The notes beneath the pieces were generated by a model. It did no database searches. It saw nothing but the letters and a program-made list of their open reading frames with translations, and was not told where the DNA came from. Shown in pieces: positions 3,511 through 34,908 of a stretch of 42,631 nucleotides of DNA; the first letter of the stretch is position 1, and each line of letters starts with the position of its first letter. The DNA lies in IMG/VR virus record IMGVR_UViG_3300021963_007070, positions 1 to 42,631 of that record. One strand, 5' to 3'. The DNA is from a virus. The translations under genes and the position numbers were made by a program.

Positions 3511-3542
3511 TTTGGATAATTGAGTATTTTTTCGTATATTTG
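3511..3542 (+). promoter_or_regulatory. Bacteroidetes-type promoter, class A
   Basis: TTTGG starts at 3511 and TATATTTG at 3535, 24 bases apart start to start. This fits the Bacteroidetes primary-sigma consensus TTTG-N(about 20)-TAnnTTTG. The predicted start of transcription is near 3547, giving a leader of about 13 bases before the ATG at 3560. The same spacing recurs at four other sites in the window. Confidence 0.75.
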
Positions 3543-10112: not shown

Positions 10113-10397
10113 ATGGAAAATAAAATGGAATTAGTAGATGAAATATGTGCTGGTATGGCGATATTAGATTATTTTGATGATGCAATCATCGGATATGATG
10201 TAGATACTAAAAAAATAATTTACGATTATAATCTTATGATTAAAGTTCTAATTGAAAACCATAAACTTCAGATAGATACTGCGGTTGATTATTTATCATA
10301 TAATGTATTAGGATTAAAAATTAAAAATGATGATGGAGAAGATATTTCTCCAATTATTATTAGTAAATTTGAAGATGAGCTAAATGATAAACTATAA
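10113..10397 (+). CDS. Hypothetical acidic protein, 94 aa
   Basis: I do not recognise this protein. It is acidic, predicted mainly helical, with no cysteine cluster or membrane segment. It begins one base after the helicase stop and overlaps the following methyltransferase by 14 bases, so it is clearly part of the helicase unit and may be translationally coupled to both neighbours. Confidence 0.65.
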   Translation: MENKMELVDEICAGMAILDYFDDAIIGYDVDTKKIIYDYNLMIKVLIENHKLQIDTAVDYLSYNVLGLKIKNDDGEDISPIIISKFEDELNDKL

Positions 10398-11442
10398 AAC
10401 TTTTTCAAAGTTTATAGAATGGGATGAGTTGGATTTGGAATATGAAAGAGTAACTCAAAATATAAAAGATGTCCACAATGTAATTGAGGCATTGGATATT
10501 ATATTTAGATATCATCGAAGAAAAGGATTCCCTCATTACCAATCAACCATTGATAATATGGTAAGCGATATGAAATCATTATCTGAATTTGACGAATCAA
10601 CTATATTCAGAGATGGTTACATTGACCAAACAATGCATTGTTTAGGTTTGGCATGGAGCTATTTCCCTCACTGGGTTGATGTTCAATGTGGTAATAGTAA
10701 AATGAGACCAATAGATTATTGGAACGATGATGATAAATTAAAAGAAATTATTAGGAAAACTTGGAATTGGCATCTTAAACATAGTGATGGTAAATTTACA
10801 TTAAATCGTTTAAGACAAAATTTCAAAATATATGGGGGTAATCAAACGGTAAGTAATTTTAGACCATCTGCCGCTAAATGGATTTATAACAATTACGGAG
10901 GAGAAACTGTTTGGGATATGAGCTGTGGTTGGGGTGGCAGGTTAATTGGTTTTTTAACGAGTAATTGTAAAACATATATTGGTACTGATCCTAGCAGTAA
11001 AACATTTGAAGGATTAGGTAAATTAAATAAAGACCTAAATTTCTATGGTAAAAATGTTATACTTCACCAATTGGGTTCAGAGGTATTTGTACCTGAAAAA
11101 GAAACTTTGGATTTATGTTTTACTTCTCCGCCTTATTTTAATACTGAGAAGTATAGTGAGGAAGAAACCCAATCATATAAAAAATATCCAACACCACATT
11201 TATGGGTAGAGGGATTTTTAAGGCAAACTATGGCAAATTGTCATATTGGCTTAAAAAATGGGGGGAAAATGTTATTAAATATAGCAAATACTCCTAAACA
11301 TAAAGATATAGAGAGTGAAACAATAAGGGTGGCAGATGAAGTTGGGTTTGTATTGAGAAATACTATAAAATTAGCACTTTCTTCAATCGCAGGAAAGGGT
11401 ATTAAATATGAACCAATATTCATTTTTGAGAAAAAAAACTAA
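10384..11442 (+). CDS. SPPY-motif methyltransferase, copy 1
   Basis: 352 aa. A SAM-binding motif I variant (WDMSCGWGGRL, about residues 178-188) is followed by YIGTDP (motif II) and TSPPYFN with the catalytic SPPY at 248-251, the order of amino-methyltransferases acting on DNA adenine N6 or cytosine N4. The segment FRPSAAKWIYNNY before motif I is shared with two longer paralogues at 21253 and 22461. The N-terminal about 150 residues differ from those copies. No recognisable restriction enzyme is adjacent, so it may be an orphan, anti-restriction or modification enzyme. The substrate is inferred, not shown. Confidence 0.78.
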   Translation: MINYKTFSKFIEWDELDLEYERVTQNIKDVHNVIEALDIIFRYHRRKGFPHYQSTIDNMVSDMKSLSEFDESTIFRDGYIDQTMHCLGLAWSYFPHWVDVQCGNSKMRPIDYWNDDDKLKEIIRKTWNWHLKHSDGKFTLNRLRQNFKIYGGNQTVSNFRPSAAKWIYNNYGGETVWDMSCGWGGRLIGFLTSNCKTYIGTDPSSKTFEGLGKLNKDLNFYGKNVILHQLGSEVFVPEKETLDLCFTSPPYFNTEKYSEEETQSYKKYPTPHLWVEGFLRQTMANCHIGLKNGGKMLLNIANTPKHKDIESETIRVADEVGFVLRNTIKLALSSIAGKGIKYEPIFIFEKKN

Positions 11443-17229: not shown

Positions 17230-17261
17230 TTTGGAAAATCGAAATAAAACACATATATTTA
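17230..17261 (+). promoter_or_regulatory. Class A promoter for the sliding clamp
   Basis: TTTGG at 17230 overlaps the polymerase stop region, and TATATTTA at 17254 is the -7 box (last base A, not G). Start-to-start distance is 24. Predicted leader of about 30 A-rich bases before the ATG at 17296. Confidence 0.65.
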
Positions 17262-17295: not shown

Positions 17296-18012
17296 ATGGA
17301 CAAAAATCGTTTAAGCCGCTTTATCTCAAAGTATAATTTGGCAGGATTAGTTGAATCAGTTTCTTGGAAAGCAGAAAACAAAACATTAACAACCCGTTTT
17401 ATCTCTGATGATAAAACTGTTTTAGGTTCAGTTAGTGTAGTTGATTTTGATTTCGAAGACTCTACTGTTGGTGTTTATAACACAAACACTTTAAAAAGTT
17501 TATTAGGTGTATTGGGTAATGATGTAAACATCTCATTAAAAAGAGTTGATGAAAAACCAATTTCATTATCTTTAACATCCGATTCTACAACTATTCAATA
17601 TCAGTTGGCAGATTTGGCTGTTATTCCAAATGTACCAGATTTGAAACAATTACCTGAATTCGGTATCAGTATTGATATGGATGGTAATTTTATTGAAAAG
17701 TTCATCAAAGCTAAATCAGCATTGAGTGATATTGATAACTTTACTGTTTTGACTGAAAAAGGTAAATTGAAAATTGTTATCGGTTATTCTAACATCAACA
17801 CTAATAGAGTTGAGTTGGTAGTTAATGATAACTTTGATGGAGAAGTAAAACCAATTTCATTCTCTGCAAAGTATTTTAAAGAGATTCTTTCTGCTAACAA
17901 AGAAGCTAACAAAGCGACTTTGAAAGTATCAAAAGAAGGATTAGCAAATGTAGATTTCTCAGTTGATGGATTTACTTCATCTTATTTCTTAGTAGAAGTA
18001 CAATTATCATAA
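17296..18012 (+). CDS. 45: Sliding clamp, gp45-like
   Basis: Processivity ring that tethers the polymerase to DNA. 238 aa, close to T4 gp45 (228 aa). Sequence motifs are diffuse in this family; the call rests on length, the clamp-like beta-strand-rich pattern (for example LSGVLGNDVNISLK-like strands and the closing SYFLVEVQL), and its place between polymerase and clamp-loader ATPase. It has its own promoter, which suits a protein needed in high amounts and, in T4, also for late transcription. Confidence 0.85.
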   Translation: MDKNRLSRFISKYNLAGLVESVSWKAENKTLTTRFISDDKTVLGSVSVVDFDFEDSTVGVYNTNTLKSLLGVLGNDVNISLKRVDEKPISLSLTSDSTTIQYQLADLAVIPNVPDLKQLPEFGISIDMDGNFIEKFIKAKSALSDIDNFTVLTEKGKLKIVIGYSNINTNRVELVVNDNFDGEVKPISFSAKYFKEILSANKEANKATLKVSKEGLANVDFSVDGFTSSYFLVEVQLS

Positions 18013-18030: not shown

Positions 18031-18975
18031 ATGAGTTTTTTTGAACAACAAGAAGAACAAGTTCACTCACTTTGGGTTGAGAAGTATAGACCTACAAAGT
18101 TAGATGACTATGTAGGTAATGAGAATCTCAAAGCAAAAGTAAAGGGGTATATCGAAAGCGGGGATATACCTCACTTACTTTTTTTTGGTAAAGCGGGAAC
18201 GGGTAAAACAACTCTCGCCAAACTAATTGTAAAAAACATTGAGTGTGATGTAATGATTATCAATGCATCCGATGAAAACAATGTTGATACCGTTCGTAAT
18301 AAAGTTAAAAACTTTGCGAGTGGAGTAGGTTTCAAACCATATAAGATTATCATTTTAGATGAGTTTGATTATATGACACCAAACGCACAGGCATTGTTAA
18401 GAAACTTAATGGAAACATTTAGTAAACACTGTCGCTTTATTTTGACGTGTAATTACATAGAGAAAATTATTCTCCCAATTCAAAGTCGTTGTCAATCGTT
18501 TCAGATTGTTCCACCAACTAAAAAGGATGTAGCAGTTCAAATTGCATCTATCCTAAAGAAAGAAGATATACAATTTAATCCTGCTGATTTAGTTCCAATA
18601 GTGGATGGATATTATCCTGATATTCGTAAGATTATCAACACTACCCAATTGGCGTGTGTTAATGGCGTATTGAAAACCGAAAGTGCTACAATTGTAGATT
18701 CCGATTTTAGATTAAAATTAGTTGAAATACTAAAATCAAAAGATGAAGTTAGGAATAAGTTTATGACAATAAGACAATTGGTAGCGGATAATCGTATTTC
18801 AGATTTCACCGATGTTTACTCATTTTTATATGATAAGTTGGATGATTACGCAAAAGGTAATACTGCAAATGTTATTATTGCATTAGCGGAGGGTACTTCA
18901 AAAGATGCTTTAGTAGTAGATAAAGAAATTACATTTATGGCAACTATTATTTCAGTAATACAATTGGTTAAATAG
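18031..18975 (+). CDS. 44: Clamp loader large subunit, gp44-like AAA+ ATPase
   Basis: Opens and loads the clamp at primer ends. 314 aa, near T4 gp44 (319 aa). VEKYRPTKLDDYVG at the N-terminus is the loader signature; Walker A GKAGTGKT is at 54-61 region, Walker B is IILDEFDYM, sensor 1 is ILTCNYIEK, and the Arg-finger SRC motif appears as IQSRCQSF. In T4 the small subunit gp62 follows directly; here eight other genes intervene before a gp62-like gene at 25473. Confidence 0.95.
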   Translation: MSFFEQQEEQVHSLWVEKYRPTKLDDYVGNENLKAKVKGYIESGDIPHLLFFGKAGTGKTTLAKLIVKNIECDVMIINASDENNVDTVRNKVKNFASGVGFKPYKIIILDEFDYMTPNAQALLRNLMETFSKHCRFILTCNYIEKIILPIQSRCQSFQIVPPTKKDVAVQIASILKKEDIQFNPADLVPIVDGYYPDIRKIINTTQLACVNGVLKTESATIVDSDFRLKLVEILKSKDEVRNKFMTIRQLVADNRISDFTDVYSFLYDKLDDYAKGNTANVIIALAEGTSKDALVVDKEITFMATIISVIQLVK

Positions 18976-19244
18976 TGAATGATTTTTTAGTTTATTTATT
19001 TGTTGTATTTTCTCAACTAGCATTAGCCGTATTTAAAGTTTTAGAAATAAAATGGGTGGTTGAAAATAATATAACAAAATCAGTTTTATTATTTAATATA
19101 CAAACTGCCTTTTGGATTGCATCAACGGCATATTCAGTAGATAGTTTTTTAAAGGGTGATTGGACTACAATTATCCTATTTCTTTTATCTGGCTCAATTG
19201 GTAAGATTATAATCTTAAAGTATTATAAGAAAAAAGAAAAATAG
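18975..19244 (+). CDS. Small integral membrane protein, 89 aa
   Basis: Starts with GTG overlapping the gp44 stop (TAGTG); the nearby ATG in another frame stops at once. Two to three hydrophobic segments are visible (about residues 4-24, 37-55 and 64-80) and the C-terminus is basic (KYYKKKEK), suggesting a cytoplasmic tail. I do not recognise the family. It is the first gene of the accessory cassette and stands two bases before the asparagine synthetase start. Confidence 0.65.
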   Translation: MNDFLVYLFVVFSQLALAVFKVLEIKWVVENNITKSVLLFNIQTAFWIASTAYSVDSFLKGDWTTIILFLLSGSIGKIIILKYYKKKEK

Positions 19245-19246
19245 TA

Positions 19247-20707
19247 ATGTGCGGAATAATAGGAGGAAATTGGTTTAAATCGGATGAACAAACTAATATT
19301 CATTTACAAAAAATAATTCATAGAGGTAGAGATGCTTCTATTGTAGATAAGATAGACAATGTCTTTGTTGGGCACAATCGTCTTTCAATTCAAGATTTAT
19401 CTTCAACTGCAAACCAACCAATGTGGAATAGTGATAAAACTATTTGCTTGGTTTACAATGGTGAGTTGTGGGATAGTCAATACACAAAAGAATTAAAAGA
19501 AAAAATTAATTTACCTTTCCGAACAAAATCTGACACCGAAATAATACTCAATGGATATGAACAATTTGGGGTAGATGTGTTTAAGGAACTGGATGGTATG
19601 TTTTCGTTTGCAATTGTTGATACTAAACTTAATAAAGTATTTGTAGTTAGAGATTATGTAGGCGAACTTCCATTGTGGTATGCTATCGATAATGATGGTA
19701 AGTTAGTATTTTCTTCAGAAAAGAAAGGCCTTCCACTTAATGATTTATATGAAACTCAGGTTAAGGCAATTTATCCAGGCACTTATTTAGAATACAATTA
19801 TAAAACATTAGAACATTCAACACAAACTTATTACACACTTCCAACTGAAATTATTAACGATGATAGAGAAACAATTGTTAAGAATATCAGAACAATGTTG
19901 GAAGAAGCTGTTAAAGTAAAGATGGTATCGGACGTTCCAATCTGCACCATTTTAAGTGGGGGTATTGATTCGGTGATAACAACTTACATACTTTCAAAGA
20001 TAAACCCTAATATTGAGGCATTTGTAGTTTCAATGGGTGATGGTGATACAAAGAACGATGATATAAAATATGCCAGAATTGCAGCTAAAGAGTTTGGTGT
20101 TAAATTGCATGAAATTATACTAACTGAAAAAGATGTTGAAGATGCGATTGAAGAAACACTTTATGTGATTGAGCAGAGTAGATGGCAGAATGTAGGTTCA
20201 GCAATTGCACAAATAGCCCTTTCAAAGAGGATAAATGAATTGGGTTTCAAAGTTGTGTTTAGTGGTGACCTATCGGATGAGATATGGGGAAGTTATGGGC
20301 ACATTCAGGCGTTTCATTGGAGACCAGAAGATTATGATGTAGCTAGAAGGAAATTAGTAGAGGATGTACATAAGACAAATTTCTTAACCACCAATCAATC
20401 TATTATGTGGGGTGGAACGGTAGAGGTGAGAACTCCTTATAGTTGGAGACCGTTTGTAGAATATACACTTAATATCCCTCCATTATATCAAAAAGAAAAC
20501 GGACACATGAAACCTCTATTGAGAGCAGCGTTTAAGGGTGAAATTTCCGATGAACTTTTGTATAGACCTAAAGTTTATTTTGCTAAAGGTTGTAGAACAG
20601 GTGATATGATGGAACATCGAAAAGACATTTTGAAATCTCAATTAAAATCCTTATATTCGTATAAGAATGATATTTTACTTAATAAATTTTTCTCAATAAA
20701 TGGTTAG
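19247..20707 (+). CDS. asnB: Asparagine synthetase, glutamine-hydrolysing type
   Basis: Class II glutamine amidotransferase joined to a PP-loop ATP pyrophosphatase, which together convert aspartate to asparagine or amidate another carboxylate. 486 aa against 554 for E. coli AsnB. MCGI at the N-terminus exposes the C2 nucleophile; HRGRD, GHNRLSI and YNGELW are glutaminase motifs; SGGIDS at 237-242 is the PP-loop. Both active sites look intact. Phage copies are uncommon; here it sits with a GNAT and methyltransferases, so it may amidate something other than aspartate. That alternative is inference. Confidence 0.9.
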   Translation: MCGIIGGNWFKSDEQTNIHLQKIIHRGRDASIVDKIDNVFVGHNRLSIQDLSSTANQPMWNSDKTICLVYNGELWDSQYTKELKEKINLPFRTKSDTEIILNGYEQFGVDVFKELDGMFSFAIVDTKLNKVFVVRDYVGELPLWYAIDNDGKLVFSSEKKGLPLNDLYETQVKAIYPGTYLEYNYKTLEHSTQTYYTLPTEIINDDRETIVKNIRTMLEEAVKVKMVSDVPICTILSGGIDSVITTYILSKINPNIEAFVVSMGDGDTKNDDIKYARIAAKEFGVKLHEIILTEKDVEDAIEETLYVIEQSRWQNVGSAIAQIALSKRINELGFKVVFSGDLSDEIWGSYGHIQAFHWRPEDYDVARRKLVEDVHKTNFLTTNQSIMWGGTVEVRTPYSWRPFVEYTLNIPPLYQKENGHMKPLLRAAFKGEISDELLYRPKVYFAKGCRTGDMMEHRKDILKSQLKSLYSYKNDILLNKFFSING

Positions 20708-21275
20708 AATACTTAATATACAAAATGATGGGGATGAAATGGAAGCAGCCATCAGAGAAGCAATGGAAATAATTGATTTATATCCAAAAGTATTTCCTCA
20801 TTTAGCGGGGCAAGGATTTAAATTAAAAAAGTATTTTAGTAAACCAAATGGTGGAGTTGTATTACAAGATGGTGTAGTTATAACCTTTGAGAAAAGCAAG
20901 GGTAATTCTAAAATTGCAAGAAAGACATTTGCTAGAAAGAAGAAGGGAGATATGATAATTCATCAGATTGCATCAAAGGAAAGAAATGGCTCTGCTCAAA
21001 GAGTTTTTAATCAATTCGTTGAGTATTGCAAATCAAAGCAGTGTGAGAATATTATTTTATCGGTTAGAACTGCAAATGAAACCGCTAGAAAATTTTACGA
21101 AAGAAATGGATTTCAATTAGTAGATGAAAATAGTGAAATGTGGCATGGTAAAAAAGAAGGATTTATATCAGGCTCAATTTATAAACTAAGATTGCCGGCT
21201 GATAAAAACATTGAAACTATCACCGATAATAAAAAATATAACTTTATAAGAAATGTATTTAGATTATTTCGATAA
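20700..21275 (+). CDS. GNAT-family N-acetyltransferase-like protein
   Basis: 191 aa. The C-terminal half has the GNAT core: MIIHQIASKERNGSAQRVFNQF (acetyl-CoA-binding region with an altered Q/RxxGxG/A loop), LSVRTANETARKFYERNGF (the usual strand 5/alpha 4 signature) and a closing strand SIYKLRL. The N-terminal about 70 residues are less clear. It starts inside the asparagine synthetase gene (8-base overlap) and its end overlaps the next methyltransferase by 23 bases, so the three are tightly coupled. The acceptor is unknown; a Mom-like DNA modification role is possible but unproven. Confidence 0.75.
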   Translation: MVRILNIQNDGDEMEAAIREAMEIIDLYPKVFPHLAGQGFKLKKYFSKPNGGVVLQDGVVITFEKSKGNSKIARKTFARKKKGDMIIHQIASKERNGSAQRVFNQFVEYCKSKQCENIILSVRTANETARKFYERNGFQLVDENSEMWHGKKEGFISGSIYKLRLPADKNIETITDNKKYNFIRNVFRLFR

Positions 21276-22482
21276 ATTTAAGGGAATGACTCCCTATCTT
21301 CATATCGGTAAAGAAGAATGGACTTATATAAAAAATACATTCGACCTTATCGATGTAAAAGAATCATTGGCGGATATTCTTATGGAGTATCCAATTCCTT
21401 ATGCGGATATTTCTGAATCAGAGGCATTAGATGCTTACAAAAAACTAAAAGGAACTTGGTGGGCTGATATTCTTAAAGAAGGAGAGTGGTTTCCTAGAAA
21501 AGCATCTGAAAGTAGATACCCATTAACATTTAGAGGTAAACAACAATACTTTAGTAGAAACAATGTTGGTAATGAATCATCTAATTTTTTCCAACAAGCA
21601 AATCGTTGGAGTGTAGATGGAACCGTTTCACCTGGCCCAAAAAGAACTTGGGAAACGAGAGAGTTTATGGTTTCACTTATGGGTGGGTTATATACTCTTA
21701 AATTTGATGAGATAGATAGAAACTCTTTAAGAACTTGTTTAGGTTTAAGAAAATACATTTGTGCACAATTCAAACCTAATGTAGCAAAGGCATTATATGA
21801 TTACCTTAAAGTGGAGAATGTATTGGATTTCTCAGCAGGGTGGGGAGACCGTTTAGCGGGATTCTATGCGAGCGAAGGTGGAAAGCATTATGTAGGTGTA
21901 GACCCTAGAAAAGAAAACCACCCAATATACCGCCAACAGGCAGATTGGTATGAAAAACACCGAACATTTTTTGAAGTAGAAAAGAGAGCCGATTTTCACT
22001 GTTCACCTGCGGAAGATTTAGATTTTTCACAATACACCGACCATTTTGATATTGTGTTTACTTCACCTCCTTATTTCAATGTAGAAAGATATTCATACGA
22101 TGATACCCAGAGTTGGGTAAGATATAAATCAATTGATGCGTGGAATGAACAATTTTTACATAAAGTAATTCATAACCTATGGCCTACAATTCGTAAGGGT
22201 GGATATTTGGCAGTAAACATTGCGGATGTATATGCTAAATCAAATGATAGAGAGAAGGGATATGTGGAGATTACAAACCCTATGAATGATTATATTCAAA
22301 CATTAGGTGCAGAATACGAAGGATGTTTAGGCATGGAGATGGCTAAGAGGCCAGGTTCAGCAGGAGCAGGTGCTATCATCGAAGGTGATGAAGACCGTTA
22401 TACCGAAGAGGCTTTGGAAAAAGCAAAAGAAGCAGAAGGTAAAAGATTTTGTGAACCTATTTGGATATGGAAAAAACTATAA
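21253..22482 (+). CDS. SPPY-motif methyltransferase, copy 2
   Basis: 409 aa. QFKPNVAKALYDY leads into SAM motif I (LDFSAGWGDRLAGF), then YVGVDP and TSPPYFN with SPPY at 271-274. This is the layout of DNA amino-methyltransferases. The N-terminal about 180 residues form a conserved domain shared with the next gene (for example LKGTWW, EWFPR, YPLTF), which may recognise the target. It is roughly half identical to copy 3 by eye over the whole length, including the C-terminal MEMAKRPGS motif and the W-I-W ending. Target base is not determined by the sequence. Confidence 0.82.
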   Translation: MYLDYFDKFKGMTPYLHIGKEEWTYIKNTFDLIDVKESLADILMEYPIPYADISESEALDAYKKLKGTWWADILKEGEWFPRKASESRYPLTFRGKQQYFSRNNVGNESSNFFQQANRWSVDGTVSPGPKRTWETREFMVSLMGGLYTLKFDEIDRNSLRTCLGLRKYICAQFKPNVAKALYDYLKVENVLDFSAGWGDRLAGFYASEGGKHYVGVDPRKENHPIYRQQADWYEKHRTFFEVEKRADFHCSPAEDLDFSQYTDHFDIVFTSPPYFNVERYSYDDTQSWVRYKSIDAWNEQFLHKVIHNLWPTIRKGGYLAVNIADVYAKSNDREKGYVEITNPMNDYIQTLGAEYEGCLGMEMAKRPGSAGAGAIIEGDEDRYTEEALEKAKEAEGKRFCEPIWIWKKL

Positions 22483-23690
22483 AAGAATACTTTAGTAAGT
22501 TCTATGATATGAAACCATACCTCACTATTGATGAAGAGGAATGGGCATATATTTTAAAAACTTATGATAAAGAAGAAATTATAGAAACCCTTTCAGAAGT
22601 TTGTCATACATATCCACTTCCGATACCGGTTTATACAAATGAAGAAGTATTAGAAGATTATAAAAAATTAAAAGGAACTTGGTGGCCTGATATACTAATT
22701 GAAGGTAATTGGTTTCCACGCAATGGTAGAGAAAGTAAATATCCACTTACATTTGATGGTAAGTTTATGTACTTTAAAAAATATACCGTTGGTAATAAGG
22801 CATCTAATAAATTTCACGTAGAGAACCGATATAAAGTTGATTGGGTAAGAGGCCCATCTGGTTGGAGAACGTGGCAGACAGTTGAAGGAATAAAGACTAT
22901 CGTAAGAGCATTCTTTACTTTGGATAAGGTATTAACTGATGTAAACATTAATACTTTGAAGATGGCTATGAATTTAAGAAAATATGTAGCTTCTCAATTC
23001 AAACCTAATGTAGCAAAAGCACTTTATGATTATTTCAAATCTGAATACATATTAGATTTTTCTGCAGGATGGGGTGATAGATTTGCCGGATTTTATGCGG
23101 CAGATAATACTAAACATTATGTTGGTATTGACCCAAACTTAAACAATCATCAAAATTATCTTTTGCAAGAAGAATACTATAAAACTAATCAAACATTTTT
23201 TGAGAGTGAAAAAAATGCTACATTTATTCCACAACCAGCGGAAGATGTAGATTATTCAGAATATGAAAATTATTTTGATACTATCTTTACTTCACCACCG
23301 TATTTTAATACCGAAAGATATTCTGATCACGAAACTCAATCTTATTTGAGATATAAACAAATAGATGATTGGAACACAAACTTTTTACACAAAGCATTAG
23401 ATAAAATGATTCCAACTCTTAAAAAGGGCGGAGTGTTAGCAGTTAATATATCAGATGTGTTTTCTGCACCTGATGGAGGTTATGTAGATATTACTAATGC
23501 TATGAACGATTTTCTTCATTCTAAGGGGTTAAAATATAGAGGGTGTATTGGTATGGAAATGACGAAAAGACCTAACAGTGGAGGTGCTGGTACTGCTGTA
23601 AGTGATTATTACTCAGAGGATTCGAAGAAGCAAGCGGAAGAAGGAAAAAATCAAGCATTTGGAGAACCAGTATGGATATGGGAAAAATAG
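22461..23690 (+). CDS. SPPY-motif methyltransferase, copy 3 (tandem paralogue)
   Basis: 409 aa, the same length as copy 2 and collinear with it: EEWAYILKTYD, LKGTWWPDIL, QFKPNVAKALYDY, LDFSAGWGDRFAGF, TSPPYFN (SPPY at 278-281), MEMTKRPNS and a W-I-W ending. It starts 22 bases inside copy 2, and the aligned N-termini support this start. Two intact copies with kept catalytic motifs suggest different targets or a heteromer rather than decay. Confidence 0.82.
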   Translation: MDMEKTIKEYFSKFYDMKPYLTIDEEEWAYILKTYDKEEIIETLSEVCHTYPLPIPVYTNEEVLEDYKKLKGTWWPDILIEGNWFPRNGRESKYPLTFDGKFMYFKKYTVGNKASNKFHVENRYKVDWVRGPSGWRTWQTVEGIKTIVRAFFTLDKVLTDVNINTLKMAMNLRKYVASQFKPNVAKALYDYFKSEYILDFSAGWGDRFAGFYAADNTKHYVGIDPNLNNHQNYLLQEEYYKTNQTFFESEKNATFIPQPAEDVDYSEYENYFDTIFTSPPYFNTERYSDHETQSYLRYKQIDDWNTNFLHKALDKMIPTLKKGGVLAVNISDVFSAPDGGYVDITNAMNDFLHSKGLKYRGCIGMEMTKRPNSGGAGTAVSDYYSEDSKKQAEEGKNQAFGEPVWIWEK

Positions 23691-24574
23691 ATAAAGTTAT
23701 ATTATGGGGATGTTCTATCAGCTATGGATTAAATGCTGATAAAGATAAAATCTATGGGCAAAGAATTGCCGATTGGTTAGAAGTTCCTCTAATCAATTTG
23801 TCTATATCAGGAGCAGGGAATATTGTAGGGAGTAACATCTTATTAAATAAACCAATAGAATTTTTTGAAAATGCATTAGTTCTTTTTCAAACTACATATT
23901 TTGAAAGGCAGATTGATAAAGAAATAATACCAAATCCTTTCTATGGAAATAGATTTTATAAAGATGTAAATTCAAACAGTTTTAGAGTTGATGATTTTAG
24001 AAATGAATATCATATAAAAGAAGATATTCTAAGAATTGATGATTGGGTAGGATATTGGACGGAATATGAAAACTTTTATAACCGAAAGTATTGGAAATAT
24101 GAAAAAGATTTTGACCATACAAAATGGATTTCTTATTTAAAAGAATTATTTAAACAAAATTCTTACTCACTTTATTTAGTTCATAAGTGGTTCATCAAAA
24201 ATGATGTTCAGCATTTATTTTTTGATATACCTATACCAATTATGGGATATAAATTAAACTATAAAGATTATCAGATTTTAGATTCTAATTTTTTTGCTAA
24301 CACTATGATAGATTTTTTGACAGGTGATAGTGATAAAAAAAATTGTTTTTATGATACATTTAAAGATGAAAATTTTTTCTTTATTGATGAGATTAATAAT
24401 GAAAATAAAATAACAGATATTCTGATTGAACCATTGTATAGTGGAAATGATACTACTATATGGAAAGAGTGGTTAAAAGAAGATAGACCCTATGGAACAC
24501 CTGACCCCTGTCATCCAAATGAAAGGGGGCATGAAAAAATATTTGAAGTATTAAAAAAATATATTAAAAAATAA
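23672..24574 (+). CDS. SGNH-like hydrolase, GCS variant
   Basis: 300 aa. Block I reads LWGCSISYG, so the nucleophile Ser is kept but the Asp of GDS is Cys, as in the GCSxT-type SGNH proteins often found in marine phages. ISGAGN supplies the Gly/Asn oxyanion positions and DPCHPNERGH near the C-terminus gives the catalytic Asp and His. The triad therefore looks complete, unlike the SGNH protein at 6970. It starts 19 bases inside methyltransferase copy 3. An esterase or acyl-transfer role on sugar or lipid is likely; the substrate is unknown. Confidence 0.75.
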   Translation: MDMGKIDKVILWGCSISYGLNADKDKIYGQRIADWLEVPLINLSISGAGNIVGSNILLNKPIEFFENALVLFQTTYFERQIDKEIIPNPFYGNRFYKDVNSNSFRVDDFRNEYHIKEDILRIDDWVGYWTEYENFYNRKYWKYEKDFDHTKWISYLKELFKQNSYSLYLVHKWFIKNDVQHLFFDIPIPIMGYKLNYKDYQILDSNFFANTMIDFLTGDSDKKNCFYDTFKDENFFFIDEINNENKITDILIEPLYSGNDTTIWKEWLKEDRPYGTPDPCHPNERGHEKIFEVLKKYIKK

Positions 24575-24585
24575 AAACAAAAACT

Positions 24586-24894
24586 ATGGCACAAATTTTA
24601 GGAAACCAACCTCAACAACCGAGACTAGATTGGTCACAGGCACAAGATTTTAATTGTTCACATTGTGGTGGAGAATATTTTATTCCCGCAGTTGTGATTA
24701 AGAAATTTTCAAAATTAGTAACCGGAACATCAAAAGATGCGGTTATTCCAGTTGATATATTGTTGTGTGGAAATTGCGGGAAACCAGTTGATGAATTAAT
24801 ACCAGCTGAAATTAGAAAGGCAAAGCAAGATAAAGAAGAAGTTAAGACTCCACCTCCACAAGAAAACCAAAGTAATTTAACATTAGAATTATAG
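24586..24894 (+). CDS. Zinc-ribbon protein, 102 aa
   Basis: Two CxxC knuckles, FNCSHCGG near residue 23 and LLCGNCGKP near residue 64, form a probable zinc ribbon with a 38-residue insert containing basic residues. The tail is charged and proline-rich. No enzyme motif is visible. It may bind nucleic acid or a protein partner; I cannot name the family. Start is preceded by an A-rich stretch and no Shine-Dalgarno. Confidence 0.7.
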   Translation: MAQILGNQPQQPRLDWSQAQDFNCSHCGGEYFIPAVVIKKFSKLVTGTSKDAVIPVDILLCGNCGKPVDELIPAEIRKAKQDKEEVKTPPPQENQSNLTLEL

Positions 24895-24900
24895 TAGATT

Positions 24901-25473
24901 ATGAAAGTATTATTTGTTTGTGCATTAAAAGAAGAATCAGATGGATATGATACTTTATTTGACTATCCAATTATCCACACTGGCGTAGGGAAAATAAATG
25001 CGGGATATAAAACTGCAATGGGCATTCTAAAACATCAACCTGATTTGGTGTGTAACTTTGGAAGTTGTGGTAGTTTCACACTGGATAAGGGAATGTTGTT
25101 AAAGGTAAAAGATGTCTATAATGGAGATATGGATGCTGAACCATTAGTTCCTTATTCTGTCACCCCATTCGATACTGATGGTGATTACTTAGAGATTGAA
25201 ACTGAAGGAGTTAGCTGCTTTACCACCGAAACCTTTATTACGAAAGAAAAAGTTAAAAACTTTCACTCTCAAAAGTTGGAATTGTTAAATAAATGTAGTA
25301 TATTTGAGATGGAACTTTATTCAGTTACGAGAGTATGTAAAGAGTTTAAGATACCAATTGTTTCTTACAAATGGGTAAGTGATGATGGTGGATTAGAGGA
25401 TTGGCAGAACAATTGTAGAATAGGGTATTCCCAATTTAAATTAGAATTTTATAACAAATATATTGCTGGATAA
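24901..25473 (+). CDS. MTA/SAH nucleosidase-like phosphorylase superfamily protein
   Basis: 190 aa. FVCALKEES matches the start of MTA/SAH nucleosidase (with the catalytic Glu), TGVGKINA is the following loop, FGSCGSF replaces the usual GxAGG, and MELYSVTRVC plus KWVSDDG match the substrate-binding Met-Glu and the catalytic Asp. It is shorter than E. coli Pfs (232 aa). It could cleave S-adenosylhomocysteine made by the three neighbouring methyltransferases, but a nucleotide-salvage or other N-glycosidic substrate is equally allowed. It ends in a TAATG overlap with the gp62-like gene. Confidence 0.75.
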   Translation: MKVLFVCALKEESDGYDTLFDYPIIHTGVGKINAGYKTAMGILKHQPDLVCNFGSCGSFTLDKGMLLKVKDVYNGDMDAEPLVPYSVTPFDTDGDYLEIETEGVSCFTTETFITKEKVKNFHSQKLELLNKCSIFEMELYSVTRVCKEFKIPIVSYKWVSDDGGLEDWQNNCRIGYSQFKLEFYNKYIAG

Positions 25474-25931
25474 TGGCTAAAACGCTTTTCGACCATCTTA
25501 ATGCTATAACAAGAGACCAGGATCCTAATTACTTTGATAAGTTATCAGAAGAGGATTTAAAAACTTGGAGTAATTATATGATTCATCGATTTCTTTCTAT
25601 GAATTATGATTTTGTTGAAACTATTGCCCAATTTCAATCTCTTACTCAAACGATGGAGCCTAAATTTTACTATCTTTTTATGATAGGGGTTTTACCAAAA
25701 GGGAAACAATATCTTCGTTATATTAAGGGTAAGGGTGAAGAGAATGCTAATGAAAAATTAGTAGAACTCATTATGGTAGAATATAACTGCTCAAAGACAA
25801 CTGCACTTGATTATTATAATATTCTCACTCACATCAAAGAAGGCGATGAATACTTTTCTTATTTAAAAACAAAATATGGAGAAGTAGATAAGGAAAAAAA
25901 ATCTACTAAAACAAAAACAAAAAAGAAATAA
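25473..25931 (+). CDS. 62: Clamp loader small subunit, gp62-like
   Basis: 152 aa against 187 in T4. The central segment FMIGVLPKGKQYLRYIK, then a helix ending with TTALDYYNIL, lines up with the T4 gp62 pattern around AVPRGKRYGKW and DAINYKSIL. The C-terminus is a Lys/Thr tail. It would complete the gp44/62 loader, although it lies about 6.5 kb from gp44 instead of next to it. Similarity is by recall and modest, but placement and pattern support it. TAATG overlaps link it on both sides. Confidence 0.72.
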   Translation: MAKTLFDHLNAITRDQDPNYFDKLSEEDLKTWSNYMIHRFLSMNYDFVETIAQFQSLTQTMEPKFYYLFMIGVLPKGKQYLRYIKGKGEENANEKLVELIMVEYNCSKTTALDYYNILTHIKEGDEYFSYLKTKYGEVDKEKKSTKTKTKKK

Positions 25932-27383: not shown

Positions 27384-28772
27384 ATGAGTAACAACAAAAA
27401 AACAATCCTCCTTTTATCAGATGATTTAAGAATGCATAGTGGTATAGCTACTATGTCAAAAGAAATAGTTTTAGGTTCAGTTCACGAGTACAATTGGATT
27501 CAAGTTGCCGCGGCAGTTCAACATCCTGATTATGGGAAAATTATAGATGTTTCCGATGATGTAAAAAATAACACAGGAGTTTCAGATGCAAGCGTAATTC
27601 TTTATCCAAATAATGGATATGGGACACAAGAATTAATAAGAGAACTTTTATCTAAACATAAGATTGATGCAATCTTACACTTTACTGACCCTCGTTATTG
27701 GATTTGGTTATATGATATGGAGCATGAGATAAGACAAACTTGTCCATTATTCTTCTATCATATTTGGGATGATTTGCCAGACCCGCATTATAATAGAGAT
27801 TATTATGAAAGTTGTGATTGGTTGGGATGTATTTCCAAACAAACTTATGGTATTGTTAAACGAACTGGGGCATTGAAAAATGGAAAAACGTGGAAGCCAT
27901 TAGAAGATTGGCAAGTAAGTTATGTACCTCATGGTGTTTCTAAATTATTCAACCCAATAGAAGTTGAAAACTCAGAACTAAAACAAAAATTATTTGCTGG
28001 AAGCGATTATGAATTTATCATCTATTGGTCAAATAGAAACATTAGAAGAAAACAACCATCTGATGTAATTTGGGCATATAAAATGTTTGTTGATTCATTG
28101 CCTGAAGAAAAAAGAAAGAAAGTTTTACTTTTGATGCACACTCAGCCAGTTGATGAAAACGGAACTGATTTAGTTGCGGTGGCAAGTAGAATAGCACCTG
28201 ATACTGAAATTAAATTTTCAACTAATAGATTATCAACCGAACAAGTAAATCAATTACTTAATCTTTGTGATATATCAGTAAACATCGCAGGTAATGAGGG
28301 ATTTGGATTGACAACTTGTGAGGGAATAATGGCTGGATTACCATCTATTGTTTTGGTAACGGGTGGATTACAAGACCAATGTGGATTTACAAAAGATGGC
28401 AAACTATTAACCGCAGATGATTATGTAGAGATTGGTTCACTTCATGATTGGAGAAAATGGGAAGGTAAAGTTGAGCACGGTGAATGGGTAAAACCACTTT
28501 GGGCTAGAGCACAAAATATGAATGGTTCAGTCCCTACTCCATACATTATTGATGATAAAGTTGATGTGTATGAATTGGCAGATGCTATGAAATATTGGTA
28601 TGATATTCCAAAAGAAAAACGAAAAGAAATGGGATTAAAAGGTAGAGAGTTTTTCCTTTCTGAAAATGGATTCTATTCACAAAGAATGGCAGATGAAATG
28701 ATTAAGGGAATGGAAAGAGCTTTTGAAAATTGGAAACCAAAGGAAAGATTTGAATTATATAAAATAAAATAA
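27384..28772 (+). CDS. Glycosyltransferase, GT-B fold (family 4-like)
   Basis: 462 aa. The N-terminal LLLSDDLRMHSGIATMSKE has the glycine-containing acceptor loop; the C-terminal half has NEGFGLTTCEGIMAGLP, the E-x7-E nucleotide-sugar motif of GT4. VPHGVSKLFNP is the typical linker. It transfers a sugar from an activated donor; acceptor unknown. First large gene of a nine-kilobase carbohydrate cluster, four bases after the regulator. Confidence 0.85.
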   Translation: MSNNKKTILLLSDDLRMHSGIATMSKEIVLGSVHEYNWIQVAAAVQHPDYGKIIDVSDDVKNNTGVSDASVILYPNNGYGTQELIRELLSKHKIDAILHFTDPRYWIWLYDMEHEIRQTCPLFFYHIWDDLPDPHYNRDYYESCDWLGCISKQTYGIVKRTGALKNGKTWKPLEDWQVSYVPHGVSKLFNPIEVENSELKQKLFAGSDYEFIIYWSNRNIRRKQPSDVIWAYKMFVDSLPEEKRKKVLLLMHTQPVDENGTDLVAVASRIAPDTEIKFSTNRLSTEQVNQLLNLCDISVNIAGNEGFGLTTCEGIMAGLPSIVLVTGGLQDQCGFTKDGKLLTADDYVEIGSLHDWRKWEGKVEHGEWVKPLWARAQNMNGSVPTPYIIDDKVDVYELADAMKYWYDIPKEKRKEMGLKGREFFLSENGFYSQRMADEMIKGMERAFENWKPKERFELYKIK

Positions 28773-28779
28773 GTTACGA

Positions 28780-29112
28780 ATGGGAAAGCAATTAGAATTA
28801 TTTGAAACACCTGCATCATTTGATAAATTAATTGAAAATGTTGTGGGTTGGGCAGCTGATAAAGACATCTTAAAGAAAGAAAATGCACCAAAACAGTTAT
28901 TAAAAGTTTTGGAAGAAGTGGGTGAAACCGCAGGTGCATTATTGAAATCAAAGAATGATGAAGTTAAAGATGGAATTGGTGATTCATTTGTAACACTTAT
29001 CATTTTAGCTAAACAATTGGGTTTAGAGCCATCTGAATGTTTAGAAGCAGCTTGGAATGAAATTAAAGATAGAACAGGTAAAACTGTTGGGGGAGTATTT
29101 GTTAAAAATTAA
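28780..29112 (+). CDS. MazG-like nucleotide pyrophosphohydrolase
   Basis: 110 aa. LLKVLEEVGETAGALLK contains the ExxE metal motif and DGIGDSFVTLI the second acidic pair, the four-helix all-alpha NTP pyrophosphatase pattern. Enzymes of this group hydrolyse non-canonical or excess (d)NTPs to monophosphates. It is embedded between two glycosyltransferases, so it could act on nucleotide by-products of a modification pathway, or simply be a pool cleaner. Length is typical for single-domain phage MazG-like proteins. Confidence 0.85.
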   Translation: MGKQLELFETPASFDKLIENVVGWAADKDILKKENAPKQLLKVLEEVGETAGALLKSKNDEVKDGIGDSFVTLIILAKQLGLEPSECLEAAWNEIKDRTGKTVGGVFVKN

Positions 29113-29114
29113 TT

Positions 29115-30350
29115 ATGAGTAAACCATTTTTATTATATCAAGCTCCGGTAGCAACTAGGAGTGGTTATGGAGATCACGCGAGAGACCTTCTTAAATCTTT
29201 TAGAGATTTAAATTATTATGATATCAAAATTGTTTCAACTAGATGGGGTTCAACTCCGATGGATCAATTAAATCCAGATAATGAGTTTGATAAATGGGTT
29301 ATAGATAGTATCGTAACTCAGATTACTCAGCAACCTGATGTATATGTTCAAATGACAGTTCCTAATGAATTTCAAACAATAGGAAAAATTAATATAGGGG
29401 TTACTGCAGGAATAGAAACAACAATAATACCAAAAGATTGGGTTGATGGTTGTAACCGAATGGATTTGGTTATTACTACATCTCAGCATTCAAAAGCTGG
29501 AATTACCGGAACTGCATGGACAGAAAGGCAAAAAGATACGCAAGCGGTTGTTGCGGAGCATAGAGTAAATAAACCTGTTGAAGTTTTATTTGAAGGAGCG
29601 GATTATAAACAAACCGATGGATTATCAAAGTTAGATAGTATAGAAGAAGATTTTTGTTTTCTTTTTGTAGGCCATTGGTTGCAAGGTAATCTTTATCATG
29701 ATAGAAAAGATGTTGGCGGAATGATACAATCATTTTTATCTGCATTTAGTAGAGCAAAGGGGAAAAAACCTGCACTTATTCTTAAAACTTCATCGGCTAA
29801 TTTTAGTATTAGAGATAGAGAAGAAATTCTTAAAAAAGTAAATGATGTTGCATCAAAGGTAAACAGTGATTTATCTATTTACTTATTACATGGTGATTTA
29901 AGTCCAGAAGATATGTGGAAACTTTACAATCACCCAAAAGTAAAAGCGAGTTTATCATTTACTCATGGTGAAGGATTTGGTAGACCACTATTAGAATTCA
30001 GTTTGACAGGAAAGCCAGTAATTGCATCTAATTGGAGTGGACATGTTGATTTTTTAAGTAATGATGGTTCAGTTTTATTAAAAGGTGATTTAAGGCCAGT
30101 AGATCCATCTGCAGCAAATCAATTTCTATTAACTGATTCACAATGGTTTTATGTAAATTATTCCGATGCAGCATTAAAACTAATTGATGTTCACAATAAT
30201 TATGATAGATACCTAACGAATTCAACAAAGTTAGGAAATGAAAACCGAATTAAGTTTTCACATAATAAAATGACGGAAGCATTGAGAGATATTTGTGATA
30301 GATACATTAAGGTTGCGAAGCATGTAGATTTAGTTTTACCTGAATTTTAA
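29115..30350 (+). CDS. Glycosyltransferase, GT-B fold (family 4-like)
   Basis: 411 aa. APVATRSGYGDHARDLL is the N-terminal acceptor region and FTHGEGFGRPLLEFSLTGKP the donor motif with two spaced Glu; ASNWSGHVDFL follows, as in many GT4 enzymes. HWLQGNLYHDRKDVGG supplies the conserved phosphate-binding segment. Two bases separate it from MazG-like and three from the next gene. It resembles the GT at 27384 only in general layout, so it probably adds a different sugar. Confidence 0.85.
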   Translation: MSKPFLLYQAPVATRSGYGDHARDLLKSFRDLNYYDIKIVSTRWGSTPMDQLNPDNEFDKWVIDSIVTQITQQPDVYVQMTVPNEFQTIGKINIGVTAGIETTIIPKDWVDGCNRMDLVITTSQHSKAGITGTAWTERQKDTQAVVAEHRVNKPVEVLFEGADYKQTDGLSKLDSIEEDFCFLFVGHWLQGNLYHDRKDVGGMIQSFLSAFSRAKGKKPALILKTSSANFSIRDREEILKKVNDVASKVNSDLSIYLLHGDLSPEDMWKLYNHPKVKASLSFTHGEGFGRPLLEFSLTGKPVIASNWSGHVDFLSNDGSVLLKGDLRPVDPSAANQFLLTDSQWFYVNYSDAALKLIDVHNNYDRYLTNSTKLGNENRIKFSHNKMTEALRDICDRYIKVAKHVDLVLPEF

Positions 30351-30353
30351 AAA

Positions 30354-30887
30354 ATGGCAACAAACAGAATTTTTACACCAAAGTGGACTAATATCATAGC
30401 GGAATTAAAACCGATTGCACATGGTATGATGAAGCCTGGTAATTTTTATAAAGTTGTTGTTTACAAATATGCTGACCCATCTCAAACAAAAGTATTGGCA
30501 GGATTAGATACTGCTTATATTTTTTTAATCGGAAGATTTACTGATAAAAAAGTTTTCTTCCCATCTATCAAATTGAAGCATGTAAATCCAGAATTATTTT
30601 TTGATAGTTTAAGGCTTACAATAGATAATATTAGTGAAGAGTTGATAGATCAATCGGAAGAGTTCAGATTACTTTTAAGAAAATTTCCAATTGATGGTAA
30701 ACCATTATTTAATATCTTAAAACGAAAGCCGTTGATTTATGAAGGAAATTATAGAGAATATAAAATGACTTCAATTAAAAGTGTTGAATTAATTCAAATA
30801 GATAAAGAATATCTTAAAGATAAATTTCTACCTGGCTATAACACATCTCAAAAAGCTAAGGAAAGAAAAGAAAATTTAAATGATTAA
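30354..30887 (+). CDS. Hypothetical protein, 177 aa
   Basis: I do not recognise this family. The N-terminal part (IFTPKWTNIIAEL, GMMKPGNFYKVVVYKYAD) and the mixed alpha/beta pattern suggest a compact globular domain; the tail is basic (KAKERKEN). No catalytic motif or membrane segment is visible. It sits inside the sugar cluster but the sequence does not tie it to carbohydrate chemistry. Confidence 0.6.
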   Translation: MATNRIFTPKWTNIIAELKPIAHGMMKPGNFYKVVVYKYADPSQTKVLAGLDTAYIFLIGRFTDKKVFFPSIKLKHVNPELFFDSLRLTIDNISEELIDQSEEFRLLLRKFPIDGKPLFNILKRKPLIYEGNYREYKMTSIKSVELIQIDKEYLKDKFLPGYNTSQKAKERKENLND

Positions 30888-30892
30888 AAGTT

Positions 30893-31216
30893 ATGACATC
30901 CAAAGAATATGTTATATGGCTTAGAGGCTTTGTAGAAGCCTGTCACGAATACGCACCCACACCAAAGCAGTGGGATGCCTTAAAGGATAAATTAGCAGAA
31001 GTAAATGATAATGATTCAATTATCGTTAATACACCTAACACTTTACCTATTCAGCAACCACTTCCTTATGTAGACCCATATAATCCATATAGGATAACTG
31101 GTACATCAATTACATACGGATATCCAAGTGGTAGTAGTTGGAATTATACAAATTCTACAAATACAAAGCCTATACAAACAGAAGAACATTCTGAAAAACA
31201 CCACAACGAAGATTAA
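30893..31216 (+). CDS. Hypothetical protein with conserved phage N-terminal motif, 107 aa
   Basis: Residues 1-36 (SKEYVIWLRGFVEACHEYAPT then KQWDALKDKL) match a short helical module recurrent in tailed phages of diverse hosts. The remainder is Pro/Tyr/Asn/Thr-rich and low in complexity, ending in a His/Glu-rich tail, so it is probably disordered. Function is unknown; this module is often found as a small stand-alone protein. Confidence 0.6.
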   Translation: MTSKEYVIWLRGFVEACHEYAPTPKQWDALKDKLAEVNDNDSIIVNTPNTLPIQQPLPYVDPYNPYRITGTSITYGYPSGSSWNYTNSTNTKPIQTEEHSEKHHNED

Positions 31217-31218
31217 GT

Positions 31219-31842
31219 ATGAAAATAAGTTACGCTATAACTGTTTGTGATGAGTTAAAAGAACTTACCTCATTAATTAACTTTCTCCTCGTGCGTGTAG
31301 ATAGCGAGGATCAAATTGTAATTCAATATGATACTGATTCCGTTACAAAAGAAGTTGTGGATTATCTTACAATCATTGGAGATATACAAAAACAAATTAA
31401 AGTTATATCTTTTCCACTTAATAAAGATTTTGCATCCTTTAAAAATAATTTGAAATCACATTGTGAAGGGGATTATATTTTTCAAATTGATGCAGATGAA
31501 GAGCCCTCCGAAATTTTATTAGAAAGATTAAAACAAATATTGACTGTAAATGAAGTTGATATTATTTTTGTACCGAGAGTTAATACCGTAAAAGGATTAA
31601 CTGAAACACATATTCAACAATGGGGGTGGAGAGTTGATGAAAAAGGTTGGGTTAATTGGCCTGATTACCAAACAAGAATCTATAAAAATACTGAAGAAGT
31701 CCAATGGCATGGTAAAGTTCATGAAAGAATAACAGGATATACTACATTCACAAATTTTCCTGCGGATGAAAAATACTCTTTATATCATCACAAGGAGATA
31801 AAAAGACAAGAAAAACAAAACGATTTTTATAATAAAATTTAA
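31219..31842 (+). CDS. Glycosyltransferase, GT-A fold (family 2-like)
   Basis: 207 aa. SYAITVCDELKELTSLI begins a GT2 domain and FQIDADEEPSE carries the D-x-D metal/nucleotide-sugar motif; QTRIYKN and WHGKVHERI match the C-terminal part of short GT2 enzymes that use a Trp-His-Gly-x-x-His-Glu pattern. It has no membrane anchor. It is the first of six tightly packed sugar genes. Confidence 0.8.
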   Translation: MKISYAITVCDELKELTSLINFLLVRVDSEDQIVIQYDTDSVTKEVVDYLTIIGDIQKQIKVISFPLNKDFASFKNNLKSHCEGDYIFQIDADEEPSEILLERLKQILTVNEVDIIFVPRVNTVKGLTETHIQQWGWRVDEKGWVNWPDYQTRIYKNTEEVQWHGKVHERITGYTTFTNFPADEKYSLYHHKEIKRQEKQNDFYNKI

Positions 31843-31846
31843 TAAA

Positions 31847-32530
31847 ATGCAAAAAGACATATTAATTGTAGTTCCATCGAGAAGTGGAAATAGTGAAAGA
31901 TACCCAAATGTAGATAGATTTATCGAAAATTGGAAAACCAATACGGAAGGATTAAGTGATTTGTGTATTGGATTAGATGATGATGATTCACATAAATATC
32001 CTATAAGAGATGGGGTTATTTACGAAATCAATCCTAGAGTTAGAATGATTCCTACATTGAATCAAATTGCTATGAAATATAGAAATTCATATAAATACAT
32101 AGCATTCTTTGGAGATGATCATGTTATTAAAACTAAATGGGAGAGCACATTTATCAATTTCTTTAATGAAAATAATGGAATAGGAATTGCGTATGGAAAC
32201 GATTTATTACAAGGTGCTAAATTACCAACTGCTGTGTGTCTAACTTCCAATATAATTGATACACTGGGATTTATGGTTCCTGAATGTTTGATTCATATGT
32301 ATGCAGATAATTTTTGGTTAGATTTAGGAAACACTTGTAATATCATAAAATATTTTGATGAAATTATATTTGAACATATTCATCCAGATAATGGTAAAGC
32401 CGAAAGAGATTCTCAATATGTAGATGCTGCATCAGTAGCTTATGTAGATCAACAAAGATATATGGAATACAGGGGTGGTTTTGATTTTTTAAACGATGTG
32501 AATAGGATAAAAGATTTAATAGAAGGATAG
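31847..32530 (+). CDS. Glycosyltransferase-like protein, GT-A type
   Basis: 227 aa. ILIVVPSRSGN then CIGLDDDDSHKYP and FFGDDHVIKTKWE give the two acidic clusters expected around the nucleotide-sugar site of a GT-A fold. IHMYADNFWLDLG further on resembles the acceptor-side motif of related phage enzymes. Assignment is by pattern and neighbourhood; it could be an unusual GT2 relative. It lies four bases after a GT2 gene and two before the FkbM methyltransferase. Confidence 0.65.
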   Translation: MQKDILIVVPSRSGNSERYPNVDRFIENWKTNTEGLSDLCIGLDDDDSHKYPIRDGVIYEINPRVRMIPTLNQIAMKYRNSYKYIAFFGDDHVIKTKWESTFINFFNENNGIGIAYGNDLLQGAKLPTAVCLTSNIIDTLGFMVPECLIHMYADNFWLDLGNTCNIIKYFDEIIFEHIHPDNGKAERDSQYVDAASVAYVDQQRYMEYRGGFDFLNDVNRIKDLIEG

Positions 32531-32532
32531 TT

Positions 32533-33165
32533 ATGAAATATTCTCAGCATGATGAAGATGGAATAATACTTAGTTTGTTAGAAAAAGAAGGAAAAGAATT
32601 TAATGGTGTTATTTTAGATGTAGGCGCTAATGATGGTATTATGTATTCTAACTCTAGAATGTTTATAGAGGATTATAATTGGAAAGGTGTTTTGATTGAA
32701 CCTACAAAAGATTGTGTAGATAAATTAAATGAATTGTATAAAAATAATCCAAATATAGAAATTTTTGATGTAGCTATTGATAATGAAGAAGGTGAAAAAG
32801 AAATACATTTGGGAACATTAAGCGGAGAAGGTATAAATCAAATTTCAACTTTAAATGATGCGGATAAATTATTTTGGGAAACTAATAGAAAAGTTAAATA
32901 TAAAAATGAAATTATTAAAACAACTACTATAAAAAAAGTATTAGAAAAATCTTCTTATAAAACTTTTGATATTGTGAGTATTGATACTGAAGGAAATGAC
33001 TTAATTGTATTATCTCAGCTAGTAAATGAAAATATTTACCCAACATTTATTATATTTGAACATAATGATAATCGCGATTTTTTGCGTAACGCTATGAATT
33101 TATTAAATGATAAATATGAAACTATATGTAGAAATACTGTAAATGTTATTTTAAAATTAAAATAA
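32533..33165 (+). CDS. FkbM-family methyltransferase
   Basis: 210 aa. ILDVGANDGIMYSNS is SAM motif I; GVLIEPTKDC follows as motif II; VSIDTEGNDLIVL is the FkbM signature near the C-terminus. This family O-methylates sugars and polyketides. In a cluster of glycosyltransferases, methylation of a glycan is the simplest reading. Its end overlaps the next ATG in the sequence TAATG. Confidence 0.88.
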   Translation: MKYSQHDEDGIILSLLEKEGKEFNGVILDVGANDGIMYSNSRMFIEDYNWKGVLIEPTKDCVDKLNELYKNNPNIEIFDVAIDNEEGEKEIHLGTLSGEGINQISTLNDADKLFWETNRKVKYKNEIIKTTTIKKVLEKSSYKTFDIVSIDTEGNDLIVLSQLVNENIYPTFIIFEHNDNRDFLRNAMNLLNDKYETICRNTVNVILKLK

Positions 33166-34906: not shown

Positions 34907-34908
34907 TT

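Follow-up and report, generated by a model that had tools for sequence, protein, structure and literature searches.

A variable cargo site between the clamp-loader genes of T4-like phages, with putative DNA methyltransferases among the cargo

In phage T4, the genes for the sliding clamp (gp45) and for the large and small subunits of the clamp loader (gp44 and gp62) belong to the 45-44-62-regA-43 cluster, and in the T4 record 45, 44 and 62 are contiguous; among 60 sampled records, the enterobacterial phages have gp44 and gp62 adjacent wherever the span shows it. In the public records examined, the pair is split by two to four genes in the cultivated cyanophages Syn19, S-RIM12, ACG-2014j and S-T4 and in the Pelagibacter phage HTVC008M, with a Dam-type or another methyltransferase in the cyanophage interval and a 2-oxoglutarate (2OG) oxygenase in that of HTVC008M. 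Hyperplastic regions are known in T4-like phages, for example, the g15–g18 region of cyanophages (PMC2984593), but no paper treating the gp44–gp62 interval as a cargo site was found in the open-access library searched. This interval is analysed here in the virus record IMGVR_UViG_3300021963_007070 (42.6 kb, 42,631 nt; the entire stretch is hereafter the window, and all coordinates refer to it). The comparison with relatives, a large group of uncultivated T4-like phages, confirms that this is a real site of variable cargo, and the window is probably best explained as carrying a hypervariable cargo slot in a T4-like replication operon, with an orphan DNA methylation payload.

The window is of the T4-like type, with genes for a polymerase (pol), a RecA-like protein, a gp32-like protein, a helicase, gp45, gp44 and gp62. 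The polymerase and the three clamp and clamp-loader proteins have homologues in the T4 cluster, but whereas genes 44 and 62 of T4 are contiguous, 6.5 kb with eight tightly packed genes separates them here. The open reading frames, their order and their coordinates agree with a first-pass annotation made from the nucleotides alone:

17296..18012, + strand: gp45-like sliding clamp, between pol and gp44 (phrog_12062, 1.7e-8; phrog_947, processivity factor, 2e-4)
18031..18975, + strand: gp44, clamp-loader large subunit (AAA, 1e-17; phrog_168, E=5e-85)
18975..19244, + strand: memA, small hydrophobic membrane protein of 89 aa, without a family match, kept at the same place in the window clade
19247..20707, + strand: asnB, glutamine-hydrolysing asparagine synthase family (TIGR01536 above cut-off; N-terminal MCGI)
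20700..21275, + strand: gnat, GNAT-fold acetyltransferase-like (PF00583 above cut-off), adjoining asnB
21253..22482, + strand: mt1, SPPY methyltransferase with DFSAGWGDR and TSPPYFN motifs
22461..23690, + strand: mt2, a paralogue 51% identical to mt1, absent from part of the window clade
23672..24574, + strand: sgnh, SGNH-like protein, retained across the window clade; the only family match is a weak one (Pfam GDSL, E=0.26)
24586..24894, + strand: ZnR, zinc-ribbon gene with two CxxC pairs, backbone between gp44 and gp62
24901..25473, + strand: mtn, PNP/MTAN-like nucleosidase (PF01048; PDB matches are methylthioadenosine/S-adenosylhomocysteine (MTA/SAH) nucleosidases)
25473..25931, + strand: gp62, clamp-loader small subunit (phrog_225, 1.4e-15; PF16790; profile links to T4 gp62)

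That the protein encoded from 25473 is a true gp62 is confirmed at the level of sequence profiles. It scores 35.8 bits against Phage_clamp_A (PF16790; curated cut-off 27), and a profile of 14 sequences of its family matches the T4 gp62 structures (PDB 3u5z_A, 1.2e-8; 3u60_A, 1.1e-8) and recovers the T4 gp62 gene itself at 9e-11.

Relatives were retrieved via gp44 (80 loci), mt1 (80 loci) and asnB (40 loci), and the loci with both gp44 and gp62 gave 54 non-redundant representatives, across which the gap between the two genes spans 8 bp to 7.2 kb. Many of these sites hold ZnR alone, and the two clamp-loader genes are directly adjacent only in L042 (8-bp gap) and L045 among the fetched loci; nearly all relatives, as well as the cyanophages and the pelagiphage, have a split pair, so that the split is no peculiarity of the window phage. 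On the gp44 tree, cargo has been repeatedly gained and lost, with at least 9 changes between cargo and no cargo and at least 14 changes of cargo type, both being minimum numbers. The cargo hotspot proposed in that annotation is thus borne out by variable content, near-empty sites and recurrent change, and gene order is not fixed across the relatives. Because the 54-locus set pools loci found with gp44, mt1 and asnB and is biased toward mt1 carriers, the junction lengths were counted again on the gp44-anchored scan only (16 gp44 clusters). In this sample, the gap between gp44 and ZnR is at least 1 kb long in 8 of the 16 clusters; for the exo-o27 and o27-gt1 junctions, the number of clusters that reach 500 bp is 0 of 13 each.

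In the window clade, the interval contains memA, asnB-gnat or a pyridoxal phosphate (PLP) enzyme, mt1, sometimes mt2, sgnh, ZnR and mtn, in this order, with the PLP enzyme in place of asnB-gnat in L009, L015 and L094. The memA-mt1-sgnh-znr-mtn order is common to all five members of this clade in the gp44 tree, as would be expected had a single old rearrangement split the pair here, with an essentially fixed gene content. Such an origin is nevertheless highly improbable, given that asnB-gnat, the PLP enzyme and mt2 vary even inside the clade, that other relatives carry different cargo or ZnR alone, and that the changes on the gp44 tree contradict it. The mt1 gene of L009 (4667-5893) contains a single in-frame stop codon, due to either a sequencing error or decay.

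The zinc-ribbon gene is backbone, not cargo, because it is present in the gp44–gp62 gap of 53 of the 54 loci (52 by tblastn, with L120 added by profile) and also separates gp44 from gp62 in the cultivated Microcystis phage Mel-JY01, where its clamp-loader neighbours are annotated, and in the 484-kb phage LR756508. The backbone order is, accordingly, gp45-gp44-ZnR-gp62. Mel-JY01 has gp44, a small ZnR gene and gp62 in the same order as the window group but with ZnR alone between the two, whereas the inserts of the cyanophages and HTVC008M are about 1.0–1.7 kb long and have no ZnR gene annotated. The four cysteines of the two CxxC pairs are invariant across 20 relatives, and the fold search with ZnR gave no significant PDB match. 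The ZnR profile also matches a Lak phage and the Flavobacterium phage immuto; in the latter, the annotation places a family-A polymerase nearby, and the region shown contains no clamp-loader gene. A clamp-binding C-terminal tail on ZnR was considered and rejected: the short hydrophobic end occurs only in the window clade, and most relatives are without it. The eight-gene accessory cassette of the first-pass annotation therefore stands as far as the presence of eight genes is concerned but not as a set of eight cargo genes or as a single cassette; it has at least three parts, namely, the asnB-gnat-mt1-mt2 block, sgnh with mtn, and the core ZnR.

The cargo of the other lineages is diverse. It includes GroEL (L030, L068), GroES with a kinase-like AAA protein (L040, L076), PfkB (L148), a radical SAM/SPASM protein (L149), a class-II aminoacyl-tRNA synthetase-like protein with a Hint-cluster protein (L131, L140) and an APRT-like phosphoribosyltransferase beside an MTAN-like gene (L078). 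L069 (9340-12057) carries, in its gp44–ZnR gap, the gene for a full-length TonB-dependent receptor (CarboxypepD_reg, plug and barrel) and, after it, genes for a family-2 glycosyltransferase and a metallophosphoesterase; such a receptor has already been reported from a megaphage (PMC9723777). The ZnR–gp62 gap of L143, L146, L150, L154, L155 and L156 holds tandem paralogous 2OG-Fe(II) oxygenase-like genes beside a Hint-domain-cluster protein, with a sulfotransferase-like gene in L143, L146, L155 and L156 and, additionally, a QueC-like gene in L155. The main entry point of cargo is the gp44–ZnR junction, with occasional cargo between ZnR and gp62 and further cargo in the gp45–gp44 gap. In both this slot and the g15–g18 region of cyanophages, conserved core genes are parted by variable cargo, which in the latter is related to host adaptation, but the g15–g18 region lies in the structural module (PMC2984593), whereas the slot lies within the clamp-loader pair, in the replication module. 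An operon that ranks among the most conserved in T4-like phages has repeatedly taken up host-adaptation genes. No homing-endonuclease genes of the HNH, GIY-YIG or LAGLIDADG types were found in the window interval, and the searches for tRNA and Rfam RNA yielded nothing useful.

Among the cargo, asnB-gnat-mt1(-mt2), the METHYLTRANSFERASE block, is a separate unit found at two genome locations: the window clade has it inside gp44–gp62, and other lineages have it between thioredoxin and gp45. The asnB and gnat genes adjoin each other in all 88 loci of a set that was not de-duplicated, and in many marine relatives mt1, with or without mt2, lies between gp45 and gp44. In L116 and L119/L186, thioredoxin is followed by (asnB-gnat-)mt1, yet the next 8–10 kb contain no match to gp45, gp44 or polymerase; the block is not tied to the clamp genes. 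AsnB scores 287 bits against the curated equivalog TIGR01536 (cut-off 267) and retains the N-terminal Cys (MCGI). This family score, along with the functionally miscellaneous cargo of the relatives (GroEL, GroES, TonB receptor, PfkB), fits the possibility that asnB-gnat, like other cargo, amounts to ordinary auxiliary metabolic genes for asparagine and nucleotide supply, their methyltransferase neighbourhood merely reflecting an insertion-tolerant slot. This is an appreciable possibility, if not the leading one; the fixed asnB-gnat-mt1 order at two locations argues for a linked unit instead.

The same linkage could point to a dedicated DNA hypermodification pathway, in which MT1 and MT2 would install a base adduct, AsnB would amidate it, GNAT would acylate it and the MTAN-like enzyme would remove by-products; in function, this would parallel Mu Mom or thymidine hypermodification, with different enzymes. 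Besides the constant asnB-gnat adjacency, this is suggested by the position of the pair nearly always beside mt1, at both locations, by the orientation of the asnB, gnat and mt genes, all in line with the replication genes, and by the 2OG oxygenases, QueC-like protein and radical-SAM protein that occupy the same slot in other lineages. Such a pathway is nonetheless doubtful, considering that AsnB passes the cut-off of an ordinary asparagine synthase, that marine lineages commonly carry mt1 in the absence of asnB-gnat, that a PLP enzyme replaces the pair in L009, L015 and L094, and that no library connects these genes and the literature searches found no such AsnB/GNAT phage system. No Mom family is among the Pfam, PHROG and NCBIfam matches of gnat, although a direct comparison with Mu Mom was not made. 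Still slightly less probable is the extended version, in which the hypermodification pathway of AsnB, GNAT and the SPPY methyltransferases would be physically coupled to the clamp-loader operon and mobile within it, and ZnR, in its fixed position between the two clamp-loader genes, would be an accessory protein of the replisome or of transcription not described so far.

The methyltransferases are well conserved. The identity of mt1 between lineages is 61–98%, which exceeds the conservation of gp45 and gp62 in marine lineages, and most positions of the S-adenosylmethionine (SAM)-binding DFSAGWGDR motif and of TSPPYFN are invariant or nearly so in 32 sequences. Against Pfam N6_N4_Mtase (cut-off 26.7), mt2 scores 28.3 and mt1 22.8, and PADLOC reports type II methyltransferase matches. 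No restriction endonuclease was detected among the eight window genes by family scans including NCBIfam and PADLOC, and with no cognate endonuclease nearby, mt1 and mt2 are classed as orphan methyltransferases. The AlphaFold model of mt1 (predicted local distance difference test score, pLDDT, of 87) matches pithovirus and Satyrvirus proteins over the full length of the fold, including the N-terminal domain (TM-score 0.57–0.70 by query length), at only about 17–20% sequence identity; several of these are labelled N4-cytosine methyltransferases, the label being an annotation.

RNA or protein, not DNA, is an unlikely substrate of mt1 and mt2, although the search of the PDB with the mt1 model gave matches limited to the common methyltransferase core, tRNA, protein and small-molecule methyltransferases among them, and neither protein has a recognisable target-recognition domain. 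The TSPPY motif, the Pfam score of mt2, the PADLOC matches, the operon context and the annotation of the giant-virus homologues speak for DNA. The cyanophage Dam-type methylase tested has no sequence similarity to mt1, so that separate phage groups have acquired methyltransferases lacking detectable sequence similarity at the same position, between gp44 and gp62. This suggests selection for DNA modification in step with replication. A cellular origin of mt1 was considered but not retained: the scan of genome contigs yielded only four loci, one close (62%, in a Flavobacteriales bin) and three distant (about 30%). A third SPPY methyltransferase-like gene is located upstream in the window (10384-11442), and other lineages have distant relatives of it (27–32%) on either the pol or the gp44 side of gp45, between the two genes concerned.

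The genes from gp45 through exo are separated by gaps of -23 to +18 bp, and a promoter-like motif, TTTGGA-N18-TATATTTG, recurs ahead of replication genes in the window and in many related contigs. The motif resembles the -33/-7 promoter of Bacteroidota. Two copies bear on the cassette:

17230..17261, + strand: promoter-like motif, 1 mismatch, in the gap upstream of gp45, where the cassette transcript likely originates
25275..25306, + strand: promoter-like motif, 1 mismatch, inside mtn, 167 nt before gp62, overlapping conserved coding sequence

Further copies start at 3511, 4853 and 8714 (0 mismatches) and 14641 (1 mismatch), so that intergenic copies precede 3560, 4962, 8750, pol and gp45. With up to 2 mismatches allowed, the window contains 7 matches compared with 2.2 expected, and 0 of 100 shuffles reach 7. 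In most relatives where the motif is seen, the gp45 copy lies 31–35 nt upstream of gp45, and the mtn copy is at the same place in five close relatives (L001, L179, L164, L094 and L009); this copy may serve gp62 as a putative internal start. No motif with 0–1 mismatch occurs between the gp45 and mtn copies, which makes read-through from gp45 the simplest model. The first-pass annotation was accordingly right that the cassette as a whole has no promoter and that co-expression with the replication genes is likely.

In the proposed explanation, the cargo would be transcribed by read-through from the predicted gp45 promoter and would probably be timed with DNA replication, as suggested by the near lack of intergenic space and the absence of a promoter for the whole cassette. 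The main payload of this phage is the mt1–mt2 pair, the products of which, as orphan SPPY amino-methyltransferases of the N4C/N6A type, would most likely methylate the phage DNA during its synthesis and thereby protect it against host restriction. The MTAN-like nucleosidase, the top PDB matches of which are MTA/SAH nucleosidases, most likely clears the inhibitory by-product SAH produced by the methyltransferases, as known biochemistry would predict, and asnB-gnat, a tightly linked pair, may support nucleotide or amino-acid supply or a further modification step. MTAN-like genes recur in the clamp-loader operon (L078, L123), and the literature search on phage MTAN returned nothing relevant. The ‘coordinated modification system' of the first-pass annotation is plausible for the methyltransferases and a hypothesis for the entire set.

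Several observations count against parts of this explanation, in addition to the core-only PDB matches of mt1. The gp45–gp44 gap is at least as variable as the gp44–ZnR gap (at least 1 kb in 11 of the 16 gp44-anchored clusters), so that the slot is not a unique hotspot, and both sides of gp44 are hotspots. Neither flanking repeats nor a mobility gene were found at the interval. Recent transfer of asnB between clades was examined in view of its protein identity of 87–90% where that of gp44 is 66–68%, and was rejected, with synonymous sites near saturation and the approximately unbiased (AU) test keeping the window clade (p about 0.3). The mtn copy of the motif could be a coding coincidence. The product of mtn falls below the curated MTAN cut-offs (33.6 vs 73.8 for TIGR01704; 37.1 vs 169 for NF004079) and is therefore named MTAN-like. 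Finally, the assignment of the host is indirect: the phage group most likely infects Bacteroidota, as suggested by the promoter-like motif, the near relative in the Flavobacteriales bin, the TonB receptor of L069 with its CarboxypepD_reg domain, and an order of nuclease, small gene and two glycosyltransferase genes shared, by annotation, with the Flavobacterium phage immuto.

The comparison exposes two uncharacterised conserved genes, ZnR and the SPPY methyltransferase, both of which are easy targets for in-vitro work. Downstream of the replication genes, the window contains a run of glycosyltransferases and an epimerase (27384-36069), preceded by a gene of 63 aa; relatives show the same order of this gene and the PD-(D/E)XK nuclease, as does immuto, judging from its annotation.

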